Below, piece after piece: positions 6,667 through 26,924 of a DNA stretch of 32,548 nt. The position numbers and the translations under genes are program-made. Origin of the DNA: Bacteroidaceae bacterium (lineage in GTDB: Bacteria > Bacteroidota > Bacteroidia > Bacteroidales > Barnesiellaceae_A); NCBI GenBank assembly GCA_017532725.1, contig JAFXIZ010000051.1, positions 1 through 32,548 of the forward strand, read 5' to 3'. The notes under the pieces were generated by a model, which saw only the letters and a list, made by a program, of their open reading frames with translations, searched no databases and was not told where the DNA came from. How positions within the stretch are numbered: the first letter of the stretch is position 1; each line of letters opens with the position of its first letter.

Positions 6667-6761
6667 TTTCTTAATGTATAAATTATGTTTGTACTATCTT
6701 TTTTACTGCCTCAAAACTCAAAATAAGTTATGATACAATTAATATTATTGAAAACAGTTTG

Positions 6762-6769
6762 CAAAAATA
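6762..6769 (-). promoter_or_regulatory. Candidate -7 promoter element for alaS
   Basis: The minus strand reads TATTTTTG here, an exact TAnnTTTG match, predicting a leader of roughly 90 bases before the alaS ATG. I see no clear T-box or other known regulatory element in that leader. Confidence 0.55.
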
Positions 6770-6833
6770 ACCCAAAATATTAATTTTGCACCTATCGAAC
6801 GATAAAAAAGTGTCGTATAACATCTATTTTTTT

Positions 6834-8225: not shown

Positions 8226-9515
8226 TTATTCTTTCCAATCCTTCAGCAAATCGGCAACTACGAAGGTACTACCTCCGATAAATATGAGATCACCTTCGCT
8301 TGCATCGCGTTTGGCAGCATTATATGCCTCGGTTACCGATGCATAACTTTCACCTTTTAGTCCGTGATTGGCTGCTATCGATGCCACTTCATCGGCCGAT
8401 AAAGCACGAGCAACCGATGCTTGCGTAAAGTAATATTGTGCTTTGCGAGGCAGTAACGATATAACGCCCGAAATATCTTTGTCGTTGACCATTCCCAACA
8501 CTATGCGAAGGGTGTTGCAAGGTGTGTTTTCAAGTTGTTCGACAATATATTGAATACCTCCTACATTATGCCCTGTGTCGCACACAACAAGGGGATGCTC
8601 ACTCAATCGTTGCCAACGTCCTCGCAATCCGGTCAATGTTGTTACTTGTGCAAACCCCTCTTTTACGGCTTCATCGCTTATATTGTAATTCAATAGGCGT
8701 AGTTGCTCTACGGCTGTGAGAATAGTGGCTGCATTTTTCTCTTGGCACAAGCCACCTAATTCGCCCCATATACTACCGGCTACGCGACTTTCATACTGCC
8801 AACCACCGTTTGTGGCTTGTGCCGTTGTTATGATATTATTATCTTGTGCAAAGAAGATGGGTGCGCCCACTTGTTGGGCTTGTTGTTTGAAAACCTCCTT
8901 AACGTCACCCTCTGCTTCGCCTATAACTGCAGGGATGCCTTCTTTTATGATGCCGGCTTTCTCGCGAGCAATAGAGGGGCAGTCGTGACCAAGCATTGCA
9001 ACGTGGTCGAGACTTATATTGGTTATTATACTGATGTCGGGGGTGATTACATTGGTTGTGTCGAGCCTGCCACCTAAACCCACTTCGATAACTGCCACAT
9101 CGACTTGTTGTTCGGCAAAATAGGTGAAAGCCATAAACGTTGTCAACTCAAAGAACGAAGGACGGAAGTTGAACGCTTCATCGCTGTGGGCTTTCAAGAA
9201 TGATTCTACGGCTTCACGAGGTATCATCTCGCCATTGACTCTGATGCGCTCGCGAAAGTCGGCAAGATGTGGCGATGTATATAGACCTACTTTATAACCA
9301 CTCTTTTGCAGGATGGCTGCAAGTGTATGAGAGGTAGAGCCTTTTCCGTTAGTGCCTCCAACGTGTATTGTGCGAAACCGGCGATGTGGATGTCCGAAAT
9401 AGGCATCGAGGGCTTCGGCATTTTCAAGTCCGGGTTTATATGCACCGGCACCAACTTGCTGAAAGGCCGGGAAACGATTGAATAACTCTTCGATAAGTTC
9501 GTCGTAATTTTTCAT
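8226..9515 (-). CDS. folC: Bifunctional folylpolyglutamate synthase/dihydrofolate synthase
   Basis: This 429-residue Mur-ligase-family enzyme adds glutamate to dihydropteroate or folates with ATP. The P-loop 'GGTNGKGS' is at about residues 53-60, the 'YTSPHL' substrate motif follows, then 'EVGLGGRLDTTNV', 'ITNISLDH' and the C-terminal 'CDTGHNVGG'. I chose the ATG at 9515 instead of an upstream one at 9542: it begins 'MKNYDELIEEL' one base after the stop of the upstream ChrA gene, whereas the longer version would overlap that gene by 26 bases with an atypical leader. It is the last gene of a three-gene minus-strand unit with the two chromate-transporter-like genes, an association without an obvious functional reason. 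Confidence 0.95.
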   Translation of the reverse strand: MKNYDELIEELFNRFPAFQQVGAGAYKPGLENAEALDAYFGHPHRRFRTIHVGGTNGKGSTSHTLAAILQKSGYKVGLYTSPHLADFRERIRVNGEMIPREAVESFLKAHSDEAFNFRPSFFELTTFMAFTYFAEQQVDVAVIEVGLGGRLDTTNVITPDISIITNISLDHVAMLGHDCPSIAREKAGIIKEGIPAVIGEAEGDVKEVFKQQAQQVGAPIFFAQDNNIITTAQATNGGWQYESRVAGSIWGELGGLCQEKNAATILTAVEQLRLLNYNISDEAVKEGFAQVTTLTGLRGRWQRLSEHPLVVCDTGHNVGGIQYIVEQLENTPCNTLRIVLGMVNDKDISGVISLLPRKAQYYFTQASVARALSADEVASIAANHGLKGESYASVTEAYNAAKRDASEGDLIFIGGSTFVVADLLKDWKE

Positions 9516-9516
9516 A

Positions 9517-10065
9517 TCAGTAGATAATGTAGCCTGCCACACCTGCTATGGCAATAACCCATATAGGATGTAGTTTGGCAAAATATACAAGTATAAATGA
9601 TACTATCGCAATAGCAATGCTGAAAGTATTATCCGAAAAATTTTCTCTATTCATAAGTAATAGTGCTGCCGATGCAATAAGCCCAACGACAACAGGACGT
9701 AATCCTTTAAATATACTTTTAATAATAGGATTCTCCTTGTTTCGCAGTATAAATCGGCTCACAAGCAGCACCAATAAAAAAGAGGGTAGGCACACTGCAA
9801 TAGTTGCCACAACCGAGCCCCACACACTACCCGTTACAGTATAACCTATATAGGTGGCACTATTTATTCCTATAGGCCCCGGGGTCATTTGCGATATGGC
9901 TACAATATCGGTAAATTCGCTTTGAGTAAGCCAAGGTGCTGTCGCACCCCATTGTACCACTTCGACTGTTTCGTGCTGAATAAGCGATAACATTGCATAT
10001 CCACCACCAAAGCCAAAGAGTCCAATCTTCAAATAAGTAAGGAAAAGCGATAAATATGTCATCAT
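9517..10065 (-). CDS. chrA: Chromate transporter-type (CHR) half subunit, second of a pair
   Basis: This 182-residue hydrophobic protein forms one CHR domain. The family motif near the N-terminus is present ('LKIGLFGFGGGYAML'), followed by 'QMTPGPIGINSATYIGY' and about five or six membrane spans. Full-length ChrA pumps carry two such domains; here they are encoded by two genes, the short-chain CHR arrangement, which is expected to work as a heteromeric pump. The substrate in Bacteroidota is not established, and chromate is only the family name. The start overlaps the stop of the upstream half by 4 bases (two ATGs, 10065 and 10062, are possible) and folC begins one base after its end. Confidence 0.88.
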   Translation of the reverse strand: MMTYLSLFLTYLKIGLFGFGGGYAMLSLIQHETVEVVQWGATAPWLTQSEFTDIVAISQMTPGPIGINSATYIGYTVTGSVWGSVVATIAVCLPSFLLVLLVSRFILRNKENPIIKSIFKGLRPVVVGLIASAALLLMNRENFSDNTFSIAIAIVSFILVYFAKLHPIWVIAIAGVAGYIIY

Positions 10066-10634
10066 TCTTTGCCTCCTTTCTTACTACACATTGTAGAGTA
10101 ACGGTTTACAATGTAGTGAATATATCCACCTAATCCACCTGCAATGATGCACCATACAGGCGATACGCCACACATCCATATAGCCAATGCAACAACAATA
10201 GGGATAGCAAATGTCAGGCGATTGAGTTTTGCACTCTTGGCTGTCGATAATACAGGCGCAACAATAAGTGCTACTACGGCAGGACGTATGCCCTTGAATA
10301 TGCTTGCCACTGTGGGATTGTCGTAGATGCGTACAAAGAATATGGCTATGAGCAGTATAATAACAAACGAGGGCAGAATCGTACCTATGGCAGCCGCCAA
10401 ACTACCTTTAAGTCCTCGCAACTTATTGCCTACAAGCACCGACATATTTACTGCCAATATACCGGGTAAAGATTGCGCAACGGCAAGTTCGTCTATAAAA
10501 TCTTCACGACTTATCCATTTATGCTTATCGACCACCTCTCGTTCTATAAGGGGTATCATAGCCCATCCACCACCGAAGGTGAAGGCACCAATCTTCATAA
10601 ATGTTGTGAAAAGTTGCAAGTAAATATTCTTCAT
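10062..10634 (-). CDS. chrA: Chromate transporter-type (CHR) half subunit, first of a pair
   Basis: This 190-residue membrane protein is the partner of the next gene. It carries the CHR signature 'MKIGAFTFGGGWAMIPLIE' near residues 12-30, then 'AVAQSLPGILAVNMSVLVG' and about five or six membrane spans. It ends in a basic tail 'KKGGKE'. The two halves are related to each other but clearly diverged, as expected for the inverted-topology pair in short-chain CHR systems. The ATG at 10634 lies 26 bases from a divergent promoter element. Transport of chromate or another oxyanion is an inference from the family only. Confidence 0.88.
   Translation of the reverse strand: MKNIYLQLFTTFMKIGAFTFGGGWAMIPLIEREVVDKHKWISREDFIDELAVAQSLPGILAVNMSVLVGNKLRGLKGSLAAAIGTILPSFVIILLIAIFFVRIYDNPTVASIFKGIRPAVVALIVAPVLSTAKSAKLNRLTFAIPIVVALAIWMCGVSPVWCIIAGGLGGYIHYIVNRYSTMCSKKGGKE
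10072..10078 (-). promoter_or_regulatory. Strong Shine-Dalgarno site for the second ChrA half
   Basis: The minus strand reads AAGGAGG about 6-9 bases before the ATG pair at 10065/10062. Such a canonical site stands out in a window where most starts have no purine-rich box. It also encodes the Lys-Gly-Gly tail of the preceding subunit, so the two halves should be translationally coupled. Confidence 0.7.
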
Positions 10635-10658
10635 TGCGCTTATCTTAATTTACTGTGC

Positions 10659-10689
10659 GCAAAGGTAAGAAAATTTATATTACCTTTGC
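10659..10689. promoter_or_regulatory. Mirrored divergent promoters for chrA and the DUF4924 gene
   Basis: GCAAAGGTAA (10659-10668) and TTACCTTTGC (10680-10689) form a perfect 10-bp inverted repeat with an 11-base centre. Each arm contains an exact -7 box: TACCTTTG on the plus strand at 10681-10688 (30 bases before the ATG at 10718) and TACCTTTG on the minus strand at 10660-10667 (26 bases before the ATG at 10634). Each -7 box lies where the -33 region of the other promoter would be. Confidence 0.72.
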
Positions 10690-10717
10690 ACCCATATTTA
10701 CAAAGAGGCTTAATTAT

Positions 10718-11263
10718 ATGTTTACTGCTAGCGCAAAGAAAAAAGAAAATATTGCCGAATATTTGCTGTATATGTGGCAAATTGAGGATATAATACGTGC
10801 TTACGGTCTTGACTTGGATCGCATACGCACCGAGATTGTCGATGCTTATACCGGAATCAGCGAGGAGCAACGCACGGCTTTGTATGAATGGTATGAGAGT
10901 CTTATCGATATGATGCGAAGCGAAGGCGTAGCCGAGAAAGGTCACTTGCAACTCAATAAAAATGTAATCATTGACCTTACCGACTTGCACTTGCGCCTGC
11001 TCAAGTCACCTCGTGAACCGTTCTATACAGCAGCATTCTACAAGGCTTTGCCTTATATCGTGGAGTTGCGAGCCAAGTCGCAAGGTGCGCAAGTAGGGGA
11101 GATTGAAACTTGCTTCAATGCCCTTTACGGCATATTGATGCTGCGATTGCAACAACGTGAAGTGAGTGCCGACACCATAAAGGCTATGAAAGATATCACG
11201 GCATTTATAACAACCCTTGCCGAGAAGTACCGTATGGAAAAAGCCGGCGAACTTGAATTATAA
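10718..11263 (+). CDS. DUF4924 family protein
   Basis: This is a 181-residue soluble, mostly helical protein of unknown function. I recognise the opening 'MFTASAKKKENIAEYLLYMWQIEDIIRA' as the start of a conserved Bacteroidota family (DUF4924). A longer version starting at 10655 is rejected because that ATG lies upstream of the -7 box at 10681-10688 and so would be outside the transcript. No signal peptide, membrane span or catalytic motif is visible. The gene is followed by prfC after 34 bases with no terminator, so the two are probably co-transcribed; whether it has a link to translation is unknown. Confidence 0.8.
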   Translation: MFTASAKKKENIAEYLLYMWQIEDIIRAYGLDLDRIRTEIVDAYTGISEEQRTALYEWYESLIDMMRSEGVAEKGHLQLNKNVIIDLTDLHLRLLKSPREPFYTAAFYKALPYIVELRAKSQGAQVGEIETCFNALYGILMLRLQQREVSADTIKAMKDITAFITTLAEKYRMEKAGELEL

Positions 11264-11297
11264 TTATTGAATAACATTAATACGACACATACATATT

Positions 11298-12878
11298 ATG
11301 AGTACACTTACCGACGAAATTTCAAAAAGACGTACGTTTGCCATCATCAGTCACCCCGATGCCGGTAAAACCACACTCACCGAGAAGTTGTTGCTTTTTG
11401 GTGGTGCTATTCACATTGCCGGTGCTGTAAAATCAAACAAAATTAAGAAAACAGCCACAAGCGACTGGATGGAGATAGAGAAGCAACGTGGTATATCGGT
11501 TGCAACATCGGTTATGGGATTTAATTATGGTGATTATAAAATAAACATCCTTGATACTCCCGGTCACCAAGACTTTGCCGAAGATACTTACCGTACACTT
11601 ACTGCCGTCGATAGTGTTATTATAGTAGTCGATGTTGCCAAAGGTGTGGAGCAACAAACACGCAAACTTATGGAGGTGTGTCGTATGCGCAATACTCCTG
11701 TTATTGTATTTGTCAACAAACTCGACCGTGAAGGTCGTGATGCCTTTGACATTCTCGACGAACTTGAGAGCGAACTCAAAATTTCGGTACGCCCTCTCTC
11801 TTGGCCCATAGGTATTGGTGCTACATTTAAGGGCGTATATAATATGTATGAACAAAACCTCAATCTCTTTACACCCAATAAGCAAGTTGTTACCGAGCGC
11901 ATCGAGTTGAGCGACGTGAACAGTCCTGAATTGGACGGCTACATTGGCGCACGCGAAGCCGAAAAGTTGCGCACCGATCTCGAATTGCTTGAAGGTGTAT
12001 ATCCCGAGTTTGAAGTAGAAGACTATTTGTCGGGACAACTTGCACCTGTATTCTTTGGCTCGGCTCTCAATATGTTTGGTGTCAAAGAGTTGCTCGATTG
12101 CTTTGTAAAGATAGCGCCTACACCCAAGTCTATTCAGGCCATTGAACGCGAGGTAAAACCCGAAGAGGAAAAATTCACAGGTTTCGTATTCAAGATACAC
12201 GCCAATATGGATCCCAACCACCGCAGTTGCATTGCTTTCGTAAAAATATGTTCAGGAAAATTTGAACGTAATGCCAACTATAAGCACGTTCGCAGTGGCA
12301 AAATGATGCGTTTCAGCAGTCCTACGGCATTTATGGCGCAGAAAAAATCGGTAGTTGATGAGGCTTACCCGGGCGATATAGTAGGTTTGCCCGATACAGG
12401 CAGTTTCAAGATTGGTGATACCCTTACCGAAGGCGAGGAACTGCACTTCAAGGGCTTGCCTTCATTCTCGCCCGAGATGTTCAAGTATATCGAGAACAAC
12501 GACCCGATGAAAGCCAAGCAATTGCAAAAGGGTATCGACCAACTTATGGACGAAGGTGTGGCACAGTTGTTTACCAACCAATTCAATGGACGTAAGATTA
12601 TAGGTACTGTAGGACAACTACAATTTGAGGTCATCGAATACCGTCTTTTGCACGAATATGGAGCGCAATGTCGTTGGGAGCCTATCAGTATGTATAAGGC
12701 TTGCTGGATAGAGAGCGACGATGCTGAAGCACTCGACAACTTCAAGCGTCGCAAGGCACAATATATGTGCGTCGATAAAGACGGTCGCGATGTCTTTATG
12801 GCCGACTCGGGCTATGTACTACAAATGGCTCAAACCGACTTCCCCAAAATACGCTTCCACTTCACAAGCGAATTTTAA
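11298..12878 (+). CDS. prfC: Peptide chain release factor 3
   Basis: This 526-residue translational GTPase recycles RF1/RF2 from the ribosome after termination. The G1 P-loop 'SHPDAGKTT' is at residues 18-26, switch I contains '[11 protein letters not shown]', G3 is '[16 protein letters not shown]' near residue 86, and G4 'NKLDREGRD' near 141. The G3 block with 'DFSEDTYR'-type residues distinguishes RF3 from EF-G. Domains II and III follow to the end, including '[15 protein letters not shown]'. Length is normal and the frame is intact. It is the second gene after the DUF4924 gene and stops 5 bases before a bidirectional terminator. Confidence 0.97.
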
Positions 12879-12883
12879 TGTTA

Positions 12884-12924
12884 TAATTAGGGCATATCGA
12901 GCATTTGTCGATATGCCCTAATTA
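12884..12924. terminator. Bidirectional terminator between prfC and the DMT gene
   Basis: A perfect 17-bp stem (12884-12900 with 12908-12924) with a 7-base loop starts 5 bases after the prfC stop and ends one base before the convergent DMT gene stop. Because all pairs are Watson-Crick it can form from either strand, although the flanking T tracts are short. Confidence 0.75.
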
Positions 12925-12925
12925 T

Positions 12926-13294
12926 TTATTTCATAAATACAAAGTAAACTGCAGCAATGAGGCAGAGGAATGCTGCTATGTGATTCCATTGCAATGACTC
13001 ACCCTTGAAGAGTAGGGTAGAAAAGACGGTAAATACCACAAGAGTGATAACCTCTTGAATGATTTTGAGTTGCATCAATGAGAAAGGCCCTCCATTTTCG
13101 CGAAAGCCCATACGATTGGCAGGTACTTGAAAGCAGTATTCAAAGAGAGCAATTCCCCACGAAAGTAATATAACGCCGTATAGAGGCCAATTACTTACAA
13201 TTTTTGTTTCTTGCAACTTGAGGTGACCATACCAAGCAAATGTCATAAAAACATTTGATATTACAAGCAAAACTATTGTAATGACTGCACGCAT
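12926..13294 (-). CDS. DMT-type small membrane protein (DUF486)
   Basis: This 122-residue protein has four predicted membrane spans: about 3-21, 34-51, 70-92 and 100-120. It matches the small DUF486/DMT-like family, half the size of a drug/metabolite transporter and expected to act as a dimer; 'FAWYGHLK', 'WGIALFEYCFQVPANR' and 'LMQLKIIQEVITL' are the segments I recognise. Substrate is unknown. A consensus promoter at 13459-13489 reads toward it but is separated from the ATG by about 160 bases containing a hairpin with a U tract, so expression may be conditional. Confidence 0.82.
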   Translation of the reverse strand: MRAVITIVLLVISNVFMTFAWYGHLKLQETKIVSNWPLYGVILLSWGIALFEYCFQVPANRMGFRENGGPFSLMQLKIIQEVITLVVFTVFSTLLFKGESLQWNHIAAFLCLIAAVYFVFMK

Positions 13295-13380
13295 AATTTG
13301 TGTTGTTTGTTACTTTTCTTACAGGCTGCGAAATTACAAATAAATGTTGATTATGGCATTCGCAAGATGAAATTTTAAGT

Positions 13381-13452
13381 AAAAAAACATTACCGACCGA
13401 TGCATCTCGCACCAGTCGGTATAACATATAACAAGTATGATGAAAAGGTTCT
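13381..13452 (-). ncRNA. Candidate small RNA or attenuated leader of the DMT gene
   Basis: A transcript from the promoter at 13459-13489 would start near 13452 and run into a 13-bp stem (13421-13409 with 13403-13391, 5-base loop), then three bases and seven U residues (complement of 13387-13381). Two of the pairs are G.U wobbles in minus-strand RNA but C.A mismatches in plus-strand RNA, so the fold belongs to the minus transcript. This gives either a short RNA of about 70 bases or a leader terminator upstream of the DMT gene. No known riboswitch or RNA family is recognised. Confidence 0.4.
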
Positions 13453-13458
13453 TCGTTG

Positions 13459-13489
13459 CAAAAATAGATATATATTTTAAATTTGCAAA
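13459..13489 (-). promoter_or_regulatory. Full consensus Bacteroidota promoter reading toward the DMT gene
   Basis: On the minus strand, TTTG (complement of 13486-13489) is followed after 19 bases by TATTTTTG (complement of 13459-13466). This is the exact -33/-7 arrangement and, with the glnN promoter, the best match in the window. Confidence 0.72.
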
Positions 13490-13606
13490 TATTTTTTGCA
13501 AAAAAGTTTAATTTTTTTGCTCATATTATACAAAATATGCATAATTATGCACGAATGGTTGCGTTTTGAAACCATTTCAAATATTGCAACATAATCAAAA
13601 AAATAG

Positions 13607-13614
13607 TACCTTCG
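13607..13614 (+). promoter_or_regulatory. Variant -7 element immediately before the DUF4268 gene
   Basis: TACCTTCG differs from TAnnTTTG at one position and ends only 4 bases before the ATG at 13619. If used, transcription would begin at or beside the start codon, giving a leaderless message. ATTG at 13583-13586 could serve as a weak -33 box at 20-base spacing. Confidence 0.45.
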
Positions 13615-13618
13615 CGAT

Positions 13619-14083
13619 ATGTATTCAAAGGATGAAGTAAGAGAATTAAAAAAGAGATTTTGGGATGGATTAAGTGCATACGCCGAAACGTATCCCGAAT
13701 TGCAAGACCGACGTCACAAGTTTATGTTACACAATACACGACTAAAAGGTGTTGCAATGATGTTCGATGCTACCCGTGACGGTGCTTATGTAATACTCGA
13801 AATAAGTCATCGTAACGAAGATCAGCAACAGAAGTTATACAATCACTTCTGCGAATATCGTGATTTGCTTGAGGCTGAATTTGACACATCGTTGGTGTGG
13901 GATACAAATTATGTGCGTGATTGTGGCAAACGTGTTATCCGAATCTACTGCTCAAAAAGTGGTATTGACATACACCGTCAAGAGCAGTGGGAGGAGTTTT
14001 ACAGTTTTATGGTTGCCAATATGATACGGCTCGAAAATGGCTTTCGACAAGTAAAGGCTATGTGGGATATGTGGGAAGGATAG
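13619..14083 (+). CDS. DUF4268 family protein
   Basis: This is a 154-residue soluble protein without signal peptide or membrane span. The opening 'MYSKDEVRELKKRFWDGL' and the closing 'NGFRQVKAMWDMWE' match the small DUF4268 family as I remember it, which occurs alone in Bacteroidota and fused to nuclease-like domains elsewhere; the function of the stand-alone form is unknown. The central 'GAYVILEISH' and 'RVIRIYCSKSGI' segments suggest an alternating beta/alpha fold. It has a possible leaderless start. The guaB gene follows after 136 bases but with its own promoter, so a shared role is not implied. Confidence 0.75.
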   Translation: MYSKDEVRELKKRFWDGLSAYAETYPELQDRRHKFMLHNTRLKGVAMMFDATRDGAYVILEISHRNEDQQQKLYNHFCEYRDLLEAEFDTSLVWDTNYVRDCGKRVIRIYCSKSGIDIHRQEQWEEFYSFMVANMIRLENGFRQVKAMWDMWEG

Positions 14084-14104
14084 TATCTTAATAGTAGTGT
14101 AACA

Positions 14105-14127
14105 ACGCCACAATATACGCCACAATA
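14105..14127 (+). repeat. Short tandem direct repeat upstream of guaB
   Basis: ACGCCACAATA occurs at 14105-14115 and again at 14117-14127, a 12-base period. It lies about 56-78 bases upstream of the guaB -7 box. It may be a regulator site or a chance duplication; no known operator is recognised. Confidence 0.5.
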
Positions 14128-14182
14128 GAATTTTTTTTGTAAAAAAAGTCCTTATATACTATGTTTCTTCGCTGAAAGTGTG

Positions 14183-14190
14183 TATCTTTG
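14183..14190 (+). promoter_or_regulatory. -7 promoter element of guaB
   Basis: TATCTTTG matches TAnnTTTG and lies 29 bases before the guaB ATG at 14220. No convincing -33 box is seen at the usual spacing, and the leader is too short for a purine riboswitch. Confidence 0.7.
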
Positions 14191-14213
14191 CGTGCAATAA
14201 AATTTAATGCTAA

Positions 14214-15695
<1,482 letters not shown>

Positions 15696-15730
15696 TGCTT
15701 TTTATTGAAAATATATAAGGTATATTAACA

Positions 15731-15768
15731 GGGCGACAGGCAATTTTTTGTCTGTTGTCCTCGTTTTA
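15731..15768 (+). terminator. Terminator of guaB
   Basis: GGGCGACAGGCA (15731-15742) pairs with 15749-15760 over a 6-base loop to give 12 continuous pairs in plus-strand RNA, three of them G.U wobbles, followed by TCGTTTTA. The wobbles would be mismatches on the other strand, so it serves guaB. Confidence 0.75.
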
Positions 15769-15841
15769 TAAAATAAACAAACTTTACCCTGTATATTAAC
15801 CAAATAAACTATAACAGAAGATAATAAACAACCATAGAAAT

Positions 15842-17773
15842 ATGAAAAAGCAATGGATTTTGTCGGCTCTTATGTCAGCCGTAATGTGTGGAAACACAGT
15901 AGCGCAAGATGATGCAATCCTTATGACCATCAACGGCAAGGATGTTACAAAATCGGAGTTTGAATATATTTATAACAAGAACAACAAACAACAAGTCGAT
16001 ATAAAGACTCTCGACGAATACTTGCCTCTGTTTGTAAATTACAAACTCAAGGTTGATGCTGCCGAAAAAGCCGGTATTGACACGACTCAAGCATTTATCA
16101 AGGAGTTTGATGGTTACCGTCGAGAACTTGCCAAGCCTTATCTTACCGATAGAACGGTCGAAGAAAATCTCTTGAAAGAGGCTTATACCAACTATTGCAA
16201 AAACGTTGAGATAAGTCACATCCTTATATCGTTTGGACAATTCCCCGACGAAGCAGCCAAAACTGCGGCTCTCAATAAGGCGAAAGAGGTTGCTGCAAGA
16301 GCCCAAGCCGGCGAAGACTTTGCAACACTTGCACAACAATATTCCGAAGACCCCGGCTCGCAGTCGCGTGGTGGATATTTGGGTTATATCAAAGGTGGTC
16401 GTTTGATATACGCCTTTGAGAAAGTTGCATTCGCAATGGCTGTCGGTGAAGTGTCCGACCCCGTTGAAACTCGCTTTGGATACCACATTATCAAAGTACA
16501 CAATGTTCGTGCCGATAGAGGCGAACGCCTATGCTCGCACATCTTCTTGGTTGTTCCTCGTGGCTCTTCGGCCGATGTTGAAGCACAAAAGAAGGCCGAA
16601 GCCGAAGCAATTTATAACGACTTGATGGCAGGTGCCGATTTTGCTCAAATGGCTCGTGAAAAGTCGAATGACCAAGCCAACTCAATGCGTGGTGGCGAAC
16701 TTCCTTGGTGTGGCTCAGGCGATTTTGTAAAAGAGTTTGAAGACGCTGCATTCTCGCTTGAAGTGGGTGAAATAGCGGCTCCTGTACGTTCATCGTACGG
16801 TTATCATATTATAAAATTGAATGATAAGCGTGATGTACTTCCCTTTGAGCAAGTGCGCAACGACTTGGTGCAACGTATAGCACGCGACGAGCGTTCGGGT
16901 ATGGCTCGTCAAGCATTGATCGACCGTTTGAAAAACGAATACAATTATAAAGTTGATGATGTTCAAGTTGCTACGGCTGTTGCCTTAAGTGGTGGTAAGT
17001 TGGACTCGGTATTTGTGGCAACACTTGCCGAGCAAGATATGACATTGGCTACATACGCCGACCAACACATCACAGCCCCAATGGTTGCCAAGGCTATTAA
17101 GTCGCGTCGCAACCCTGCCAATGCTGTTGTGGAAAATGTCATTAAGTATGAGATTAATCGCTTGGCCGAAGAGGGCTTGTTGAATATCGAGATGAATAAC
17201 CTCACTGCCAAGTATCCCGAATATCGCAATCTCTTGAATGAGTATCGCGATGGTATGTTGCTCTTCGAAATCAGCAATCGTGAAGTTTGGGAAAAGGCTG
17301 CAGTAGATACCAAAGGCTTGGAGAAATTCTTCAAGAAAAACAAAAAATCTTATGCTTGGGACAGAGTTCACTATAAAGGTTTTGTAGTATCTTGCGCCAA
17401 CGATACAATTGCCAAAGAGGTACAAAAACTTATCAAAAAGACTAAAGCCGATGATGTAGTGGTTGCTGCAAACGAAGCATTCAACAACGATTCTACAACA
17501 AACGTTTCTATCGAAAGAGGCATTTACATACAAGGTGACAACAAGTATGTCGATGAACTTGTATTTGAAGGTGCTAAAGCAGAAAGAAAACAAGACTTAC
17601 CCGTAGTGTTCGTATCGGGTAAAAAACTGAAAGCCCCCGAAAGTTACCAAGACGTTAAGGGCAAGGTTACAGCCGATTACCAAGAGTACCTCGAAAAGGT
17701 GTGGGTTGAGAACTTGAACAAAAGGGCTACAGTTGTAAAAAACGAAGATGTATTAAAAACCATTAACAAATAA
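15842..17773 (+). CDS. Periplasmic peptidyl-prolyl isomerase with two parvulin domains
   Basis: This is a 643-residue exported foldase. A signal peptide covers about residues 1-21, ending 'GNTVAQ'. A SurA/PrsA-like N-terminal helical part follows, with 'LPLFVNYKLKVDAAEKAG'. Parvulin domain 1 is at about residues 122-222, from 'EISHILISF' through 'YSEDPGSQSRGGYLGY' to 'RFGYHIIKV'. Parvulin domain 2 is at about 229-330, from 'CSHIFLVV' to 'SYGYHIIKL'. The last 310 residues have no motif I can name. It probably helps fold outer-membrane or periplasmic proteins. It heads a run with two further SurA-like genes, an OstA-like gene and mutL. No TAnnTTTG box is visible in the 146 bases upstream. Confidence 0.92.
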   Translation: MKKQWILSALMSAVMCGNTVAQDDAILMTINGKDVTKSEFEYIYNKNNKQQVDIKTLDEYLPLFVNYKLKVDAAEKAGIDTTQAFIKEFDGYRRELAKPYLTDRTVEENLLKEAYTNYCKNVEISHILISFGQFPDEAAKTAALNKAKEVAARAQAGEDFATLAQQYSEDPGSQSRGGYLGYIKGGRLIYAFEKVAFAMAVGEVSDPVETRFGYHIIKVHNVRADRGERLCSHIFLVVPRGSSADVEAQKKAEAEAIYNDLMAGADFAQMAREKSNDQANSMRGGELPWCGSGDFVKEFEDAAFSLEVGEIAAPVRSSYGYHIIKLNDKRDVLPFEQVRNDLVQRIARDERSGMARQALIDRLKNEYNYKVDDVQVATAVALSGGKLDSVFVATLAEQDMTLATYADQHITAPMVAKAIKSRRNPANAVVENVIKYEINRLAEEGLLNIEMNNLTAKYPEYRNLLNEYRDGMLLFEISNREVWEKAAVDTKGLEKFFKKNKKSYAWDRVHYKGFVVSCANDTIAKEVQKLIKKTKADDVVVAANEAFNNDSTTNVSIERGIYIQGDNKYVDELVFEGAKAERKQDLPVVFVSGKKLKAPESYQDVKGKVTADYQEYLEKVWVENLNKRATVVKNEDVLKTINK

Positions 17774-17822
17774 TAGTTTTTAGATAATTCGTTGTAAATT
17801 TAGCAACGAAACAATTATTGCA

Positions 17823-18707
17823 GTGAAGTCTATATTACATATATCTATGTGCGTCATCCTCATACTATCGGTATGGGGATGTCGTGGTAAACAGAAATCT
17901 ACCCAAGACGTGCTGGCAAGGGTAGGTACAGCCACTTTTACGCAACAACAATTAGATGACGTGATGCCGAGTGGATTGAGCGATTCGGCACAAATGGTGT
18001 TTGCCAATAGATATATAGATAATTGGATAGCAGAGGAGTTACTGTACGAAATGGCTTGCAAAAATCTTCCCGATGTAGAACGCCTTGAAAAGTTGGTACA
18101 GGAATATCGTCGAGATCTTTTCTGCCACGAATATCGCAAGCGTCTATCCGATGAGCGTGTTGCTGCAAGCATTCCCGAGGACACTTTGCAACAATTCTAT
18201 CAAGAACACAGTCAGGAGTTCAAGTTGCACAAGCCCATTGTTAAAGGGTTGTTGCTGAAAGTTCCTATCAATGCACCACAACTGCAATCGTTGCGCCAAT
18301 GGGTAAAATCGGCCGGCGTTAACGGCGTAGAGAAGATTGAAAAATACGCTGTAAAAAATGCTATTGGCTACGACTACTTCTTCGACCGTTGGGTATGGTT
18401 TGATGATATAAAAGACAATATTCCTTACGACTTTAAAGACGACAACCTGTTTTTGAGTCAAAATAAGACATTCGAGCATAAAGGCGAAGATATGATATAC
18501 TTGTTGTGCATCGACAGTTATTTGAAGGCCGGCGATATTATGCCATACGAATTTGCTCGCTCGCGTGTGTTGGAAATTTTACTCAACGAGAAGCGTATGG
18601 AATTTAACAAAGAACTGAAGCGTGAACTATACGATGAGGCTGTAGCCGATGGCATCGTTGAGTTATTTTATAATACAACTGTCGATACGACAGCAACAAA
18701 TCAATAG
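17823..18707 (+). CDS. SurA/PrsA-like lipoprotein with degenerate parvulin region
   Basis: This 294-residue protein begins at a GTG codon; the first in-frame ATG is at codon 9 and would cut the basic end of the signal peptide. A hydrophobic segment ends in 'SVWGC', so Cys20 may be lipidated, though the lipobox is weak. 'VLARVGTATFTQQQLDDVMPS' and the next helices resemble the SurA N-terminal chaperone fold, and 'PYEFARSRVLEILLNEKRMEF' resembles the helix after a parvulin domain. The middle aligns only loosely with a parvulin and lacks the GG and FGYHII motifs of its neighbours, so isomerase activity is unlikely. It lies 49 bases after the PPIase gene and 7 before surA. Confidence 0.75.
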   Translation: MKSILHISMCVILILSVWGCRGKQKSTQDVLARVGTATFTQQQLDDVMPSGLSDSAQMVFANRYIDNWIAEELLYEMACKNLPDVERLEKLVQEYRRDLFCHEYRKRLSDERVAASIPEDTLQQFYQEHSQEFKLHKPIVKGLLLKVPINAPQLQSLRQWVKSAGVNGVEKIEKYAVKNAIGYDYFFDRWVWFDDIKDNIPYDFKDDNLFLSQNKTFEHKGEDMIYLLCIDSYLKAGDIMPYEFARSRVLEILLNEKRMEFNKELKRELYDEAVADGIVELFYNTTVDTTATNQ

Positions 18708-26893: not shown

Positions 26894-26924
26894 TTTGATT
26901 ACCGACTAATTTATTTTAAATTTG
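26894..26924 (+). promoter_or_regulatory. Full consensus promoter of glnN
   Basis: TTTG at 26894-26897 is followed after 19 bases by TAAATTTG at 26917-26924, the exact -33/-7 arrangement. It predicts a leader of roughly 75 bases before the ATG at 27005; no known regulatory RNA is recognised in it. Confidence 0.78.

Follow-up and report, generated by a model that had tools for sequence, protein, structure and literature searches.

To our knowledge, few trans-acting RNAs have been described in the Bacteroidota. FopS of B. thetaiotaomicron is reported as bands of about 65 and 70 nt and carries a 5' seed that includes UUUUCAU (PMC11697453). The report gives GTGTTTTTCATAGTATTAGATTTAAGGTTAACAAA as the consensus of seed R1' and describes the RNA as conserved within Bacteroidaceae. 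In Bacteroides, FopS is bound by RbpB, an RRM_1 protein, and represses SusC-type mRNAs (PMC11697453). In this report and in that on GibS (PMC7366714), the 5' seed of each RNA binds around start codons and represses its targets.

Here we describe an element in a stretch of 32,548 nucleotides of Bacteroidaceae DNA (the window) that is, judged from sequence comparison, probably a conserved independent sRNA gene absent from Rfam and for which we found no published report. The accessible portions of the literature on FopS and GibS in Bacteroidales, on small RNAs of Barnesiella and on the seed sequence contain no report of the window RNA. At the gathering threshold, Rfam 15 has no matches in the window. 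With a relaxed threshold over positions 13250-13650, the best sub-threshold E value is at least 1, which is chance-level.

Organization of the locus

The element lies on the minus strand between two divergently transcribed genes. On one side is a gene for a DUF4268 protein (13619-14083, plus strand; PF14088, E 7.7e-28), and on the other a gene for a DUF486 / DMT_6 small membrane protein (12926-13294, minus strand; PF04342, E 1.2e-46). An 18-bp hairpin at 12883-12925, between this second gene and the convergent RF3 gene, is likely a shared terminator of the two. Elsewhere in the window, an ARAGORN tRNA-Ile call at 16369-16467 (plus strand) falls inside a PPIase-domain gene (15842-17773) and is probably a false positive.

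The putative sRNA is preceded by a promoter of the sigma-ABfr type found in Bacteroidota, TTTG-N19-TATTTTTG, which occupies 13489-13459 of the minus strand with TTTG at 13489-13486 and TATTTTTG at 13466-13459. Three exact copies of the spaced motif occur in the window compared with 0.18 expected, a count reached in none of 100 shuffles. The other two exact TTTG-N19-TANNTTTG motifs are on the plus strand at 6758-6788 and 26894-26924. A TANNTTTG box is found 5' of the sRNA in all seven genomes that carry it. We infer a start near 13454, and the U tract marks the predicted 3' end. The 5' part, GAAGAACCTTTTCATCATACTTGTTATATGT (13454-13424, minus strand), is the candidate seed. It is followed by a predicted intrinsic terminator stem of 13 bp (13421-13391, minus strand), in which TACCGACTGGTGC (13421-13409) pairs with GCATCGGTCGGTA (13403-13391) across the 5-nt loop GAGAT. 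A gap of three nucleotides (ATG, 13390-13388) separates the stem from seven T residues at 13387-13381.

This layout agrees closely with what an earlier note had read from the window. The exact promoter motif is present as it described, the spacing to the stem, which it put at about 30 bases, measures 37 counted from the -7 box and approximately 33 counted from the inferred start, and the 13-bp stem, the 3-base gap and the seven U residues are all there. Two G.U pairs in the stem exist only in the minus-strand RNA, as was noted, and the plus-strand RNA would have A-C mismatches in their place. The DUF486 gene, placed about 90 bases further on, starts at 13294, 86 bases past the U tract.

The 70 nt from 13381 to 13450 fold with a predicted free energy of -21.8 kcal/mol (z -4.31), and one of 200 shuffles was at least as good. 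The hairpin is the first listed of ten terminator-like sites in 9000-18500. The number expected in that interval is 7.2, so the count is not above chance and comparison with relatives was needed. The evidence beyond chance for this predicted element is comparative, and consists of the recovery of the 5' part from seven of nine genomes of the genus and the covariation of the stem.

Conservation and covariation within the genus

A search with the 29-nt 5' part that allowed up to three mismatches identified one copy in each of seven of the nine genus genomes, all with no mismatches. The 5' part was not found in G005 (91% complete) or G006 (85% complete), where the sRNA may be truly absent or may have been lost in assembly. 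At the six syntenic loci all 30 columns from 13453 to 13424 are invariant, and the first G of GAAGAACCTTTTCATCATACTTGTTATATGT is replaced by A in G003. Identity over these loci is 100% for the 5' 30 nt, 84% for the hairpin and 64% for the promoter, compared with 73.5% for the neighbouring DUF4268 coding DNA. Both the region upstream of the promoter and that between the U tract and the ATG are 47% identical. Its mean unpaired probability of 0.76 predicts that the 5' part is largely single-stranded. The lack of any change over these 30 nt, in a region where even coding DNA diverges, implies strong constraint, probably from many targets or from a binding protein.

We aligned the seven homologous sequences, one from each sRNA-bearing genome of the genus (alignment A3). 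The 13 stem pairs are formed in 90 of 91 cells (98.9%), and the two G.U pairs of the window correspond to columns 42-58 and 44-56. Compensatory changes in relatives, which the earlier note had asked for, are found on both sides of 4 of the 13 pairs. None of 500 shuffles matched the observed number of paired cells, the number of pairs or of cells changed on both sides, or the covariation score; the count of pair types was reached by 127 of the 500. Pairing is lost when one strand of the stem is slid against the other, and RNAalifold recovers the identical stem. All seven homologues have a U-rich tract after the stem, which is interrupted (AUUUUA) in G008.

These data bear on several other readings of the locus. 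The stem and U tract resemble those of an ordinary intrinsic terminator, and the hairpin could be only that, with no functional RNA, insulating DUF486 from upstream transcription. However, conservation is highest in the 30 unpaired nt that precede the stem, where it exceeds even that of nearby coding DNA, and no gene on the same strand ends just upstream since the upstream neighbour, DUF4268, is divergent. We consider this explanation improbable. It is less probable still, to the point of being very doubtful, that the feature under selection is a palindromic DNA site for a repressor. An imperfect palindrome, ACCGAC..GTCGGT, does lie close to the promoter, and we take its arms to resemble TetR-family operators. 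However, the letters of the arms vary by species (ACCGAC, GCCGAC, ACCGAT, GTCGGC), the substitutions preserve RNA pairs including G.U, and U-rich sequence follows the hairpin on its 3' side in all seven homologues. A leader peptide or small protein translated from the ATG at 13427 would account for a 78-aa open frame in the window, and the corresponding frames are partly alike in some relatives. In G008, however, TAA directly follows the ATG, closing the frame at its second codon and making a conserved coding role unlikely. In addition, nucleotide changes track base pairing, and we give a coding function very little credence.

Relation to the DUF486 gene

The earlier note had offered two options for the element, an independent RNA some 70 bases long or a premature terminator controlling the transporter. 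The second would place the hairpin in the leader of the DUF486 mRNA, with read-through regulated by a signal. The hairpin is on the same strand as DUF486 and just 86 bases upstream of it in the window. This arrangement is also kept by most of the genus: a search for DMT_6 (DUF486) in 99 genomes gave matches in 49, including seven of the nine in the genus, and in six of these seven the gap between DUF4268 and DMT_6 holds the promoter box, GAAGAACCTTTTCATCATACTTGTTATATGT, the hairpin and the U tract.

In the seventh genome, G007, the sRNA instead lies between guaB and another gene. There is no DMT_6 match at this locus, and DMT_6 is on a different contig. At each of the other six loci, another -7-type box follows the U tract and precedes the DUF486 start. 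In the window this box, TAATTTCG (13329-13336, minus strand), lies 3' of the sRNA terminator and is likely the -7 box of the DUF486 gene itself. The sequence is TAATTTCG in three of the six loci, and in the other three it fits TANNTTTG exactly (TANTTTTG; TACTTTTG or TAATTTTG). The second box in the six syntenic loci and the position of the sRNA away from DUF486 in G007 argue for the sRNA being a transcription unit separate from DUF486. A 181-nt fold retains the hairpin (z -1.87).

The same two observations, a separate promoter-like box between terminator and gene and an sRNA apart from DUF486 in G007, make attenuation unlikely. The pattern of conservation also speaks against it, as the 5' sequence is kept in 30 of 30 columns and the DNA between the U tract and the ATG drifts, the opposite of what is expected for a leader with an antiterminator that reaches the gene. 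Further, copies of a related RNA, described below, adjoin a different gene. Attenuation has in our estimate a small probability, slightly above that of the plain terminator, and the option of transporter control raised in the earlier note is not supported. The independent-RNA option has the support of the invariant 5' part, the covarying terminator stem, the promoter box kept among relatives, the existence of another related locus and the arrangement in G007. We therefore favour, as the likely though not certain reading, an independent sRNA gene of approximately 74 nt, from about 13454 to 13381 on the minus strand, whose 5' part we propose would pair with start regions.

Related loci, candidate targets and comparison with FopS and GibS

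Searching 393 genomes of the order with a covariance model of the window sRNA (sRNA A) revealed one further locus each in G002 (50.6 bits) and G000 (41.3 bits). A pattern search added a further copy in G008. The copies of this RNA, sRNA B, in three species (L069, G000:C70:34614-34687, minus strand; L067; L068) have AACCTTTTCATCATA in common with the window sRNA. Each also has a U tract and a hairpin whose loop is of the GCGTGA type, and each adjoins the same neighbour gene. A small GTGTTAAAACAC hairpin is present 5' of sRNA B in G000 and G008. The single RNA of G007 is flanked by guaB and by a homologue (46% identity) of the gene next to sRNA B. The G007 locus thus combines neighbours of A (guaB) and of B, which suggests, on one reading, that the two RNAs split from a single ancestral locus.

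The covariance search in Bacteroidales proposed in the earlier note thus yielded second loci within the genus and nothing convincing outside it. In the order-wide scan 19 of the 393 genomes had a match at E <=0.01, five of them from the genus. The 14 matches outside the genus (26-33.5 bits) were judged on inspection to be chance or 3'-end terminators. The only doubtful case among them is L044 of G122 (C18:3227-3308; 33.5 bits), where AACCTCTTAAACATA occurs together with a promoter-like box and a hairpin formed by GCCAACTG and CAGTTGGC; it is possibly a distant relative. A scan of genome contigs for the promoter-plus-seed pattern returned 96 stretches, and among the matches listed only five (L083, L095, L106, L145 and L156) have the full layout of promoter, hairpin and U tract. 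These five records match the genus and come from Bacteroidaceae MAGs of ruminant guts and from uncultured Barnesiella. Outside the genus, neither the model scan of 393 genomes nor the listed matches of the contig scan contained anything convincing, and the pattern did not occur in viral contigs.

The 5' part (AACCUUUUCAUCAUA) is the antisense of UAUGAUGAAAAGGUU, a sequence that resembles a translation start (AUG AUG AAA AGG). By analogy with FopS and GibS of Bacteroides, we infer that the window sRNA is a base-pairing regulator. Its 5' part would pair with translation start regions, such as those of the form AUG-AUG-AAAA, in mRNAs encoded elsewhere, and such pairing would block translation. 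A near-perfect complement of a 15-mer of the seed has 137 matches in nine genomes, ten of which are the sRNA loci, compared with 103 for a reversed control, and 38 matches, picked by recurrence and genome, were read in context. A match at a start codon recurs in G001, G004 and G005 in genes for proteins beginning MMKKI (-19 to -21 kcal/mol). This candidate is also present in G005, where the sRNA was not detected. The 19-mer complement has 23 matches, seven of them the sRNA itself, compared with six for the control. A 19-mer site on contig C40 of G000 lies on the strand opposite a long open frame; the best-scoring site in G000 (L210) is antisense to the long open frame at that place. Start regions taken from 18.8% of the genome, 301 in all, were scanned for duplexes, and none was a strong partner of seed A. 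Duplexes below -17 kcal/mol were formed by one start region and four internal windows, and start regions were favoured over internal windows by approximately 1.8 sd relative to shuffled seeds, a weak preference. Complements of the seed are thus only modestly commoner than in the control, and the sample searched holds no convincing target.

Among described RNAs, FopS is the nearest in layout. As predicted from its sequence, the window sRNA has the arrangement of FopS, with a TANNTTTG promoter, a length of ~70 nt, an unpaired 5' part and a 3' hairpin followed by a U tract. The two have in common their size, the TANNTTTG promoter, a conserved 5' seed with UUUUCAU, a single 3' terminator hairpin and occurrence in more than one copy per genome. 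The seeds, however, differ. The best ungapped match between the window seed and that of FopS is 16 of 30 positions, where shuffled sequences average 13.5 and 7% are as good, so the resemblance is not significant. The 24-nt core of the FopS seed, with up to three mismatches, matches G000 on contigs C83 and C25 and not at the window locus. True FopS copies are found elsewhere in all nine genomes of the genus (L243, L244 and L265-L276), and seed matches with up to three mismatches occur in 77 of 295 order genomes sampled, representing 53 of 183 genera. Promoter and hairpin were inspected at twelve FopS loci (L233-L244), and those of the genus resemble the window sRNA in layout. In G007 a FopS copy (L276, C3:149548-149571, minus strand) lies ~1.1 kb upstream of DMT_6. 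The idea that the window sRNA acts as a sponge of FopS was also considered; predicted pairing between the two is not above that of shuffles, 28% of which are as good.

The likeness to GibS (BTnc035; PMC7366714) lies in its described features. Like the predicted window sRNA, GibS has an intrinsic terminator and an unpaired conserved 5' seed, which in GibS is reported to bind at translation starts. GibS differs in its length of 145 nt, its extra hairpins and its promoter motif, PM2.

No RRM_1 (PF00076) protein was detected in any of the nine genus genomes, in a search whose control was positive in Bacteroides ihuae. We tentatively propose, as one possibility rather than the probable case, that sRNAs A and B form a two-member family specific to this genus, distinct from FopS, that would apply the same principle of blocking start codons with a seed of its own and with no RRM_1 protein detected. 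The window RNA offers a test case for regulation by sRNAs in those Bacteroidales that have FopS and in which no RRM_1 protein is detected.
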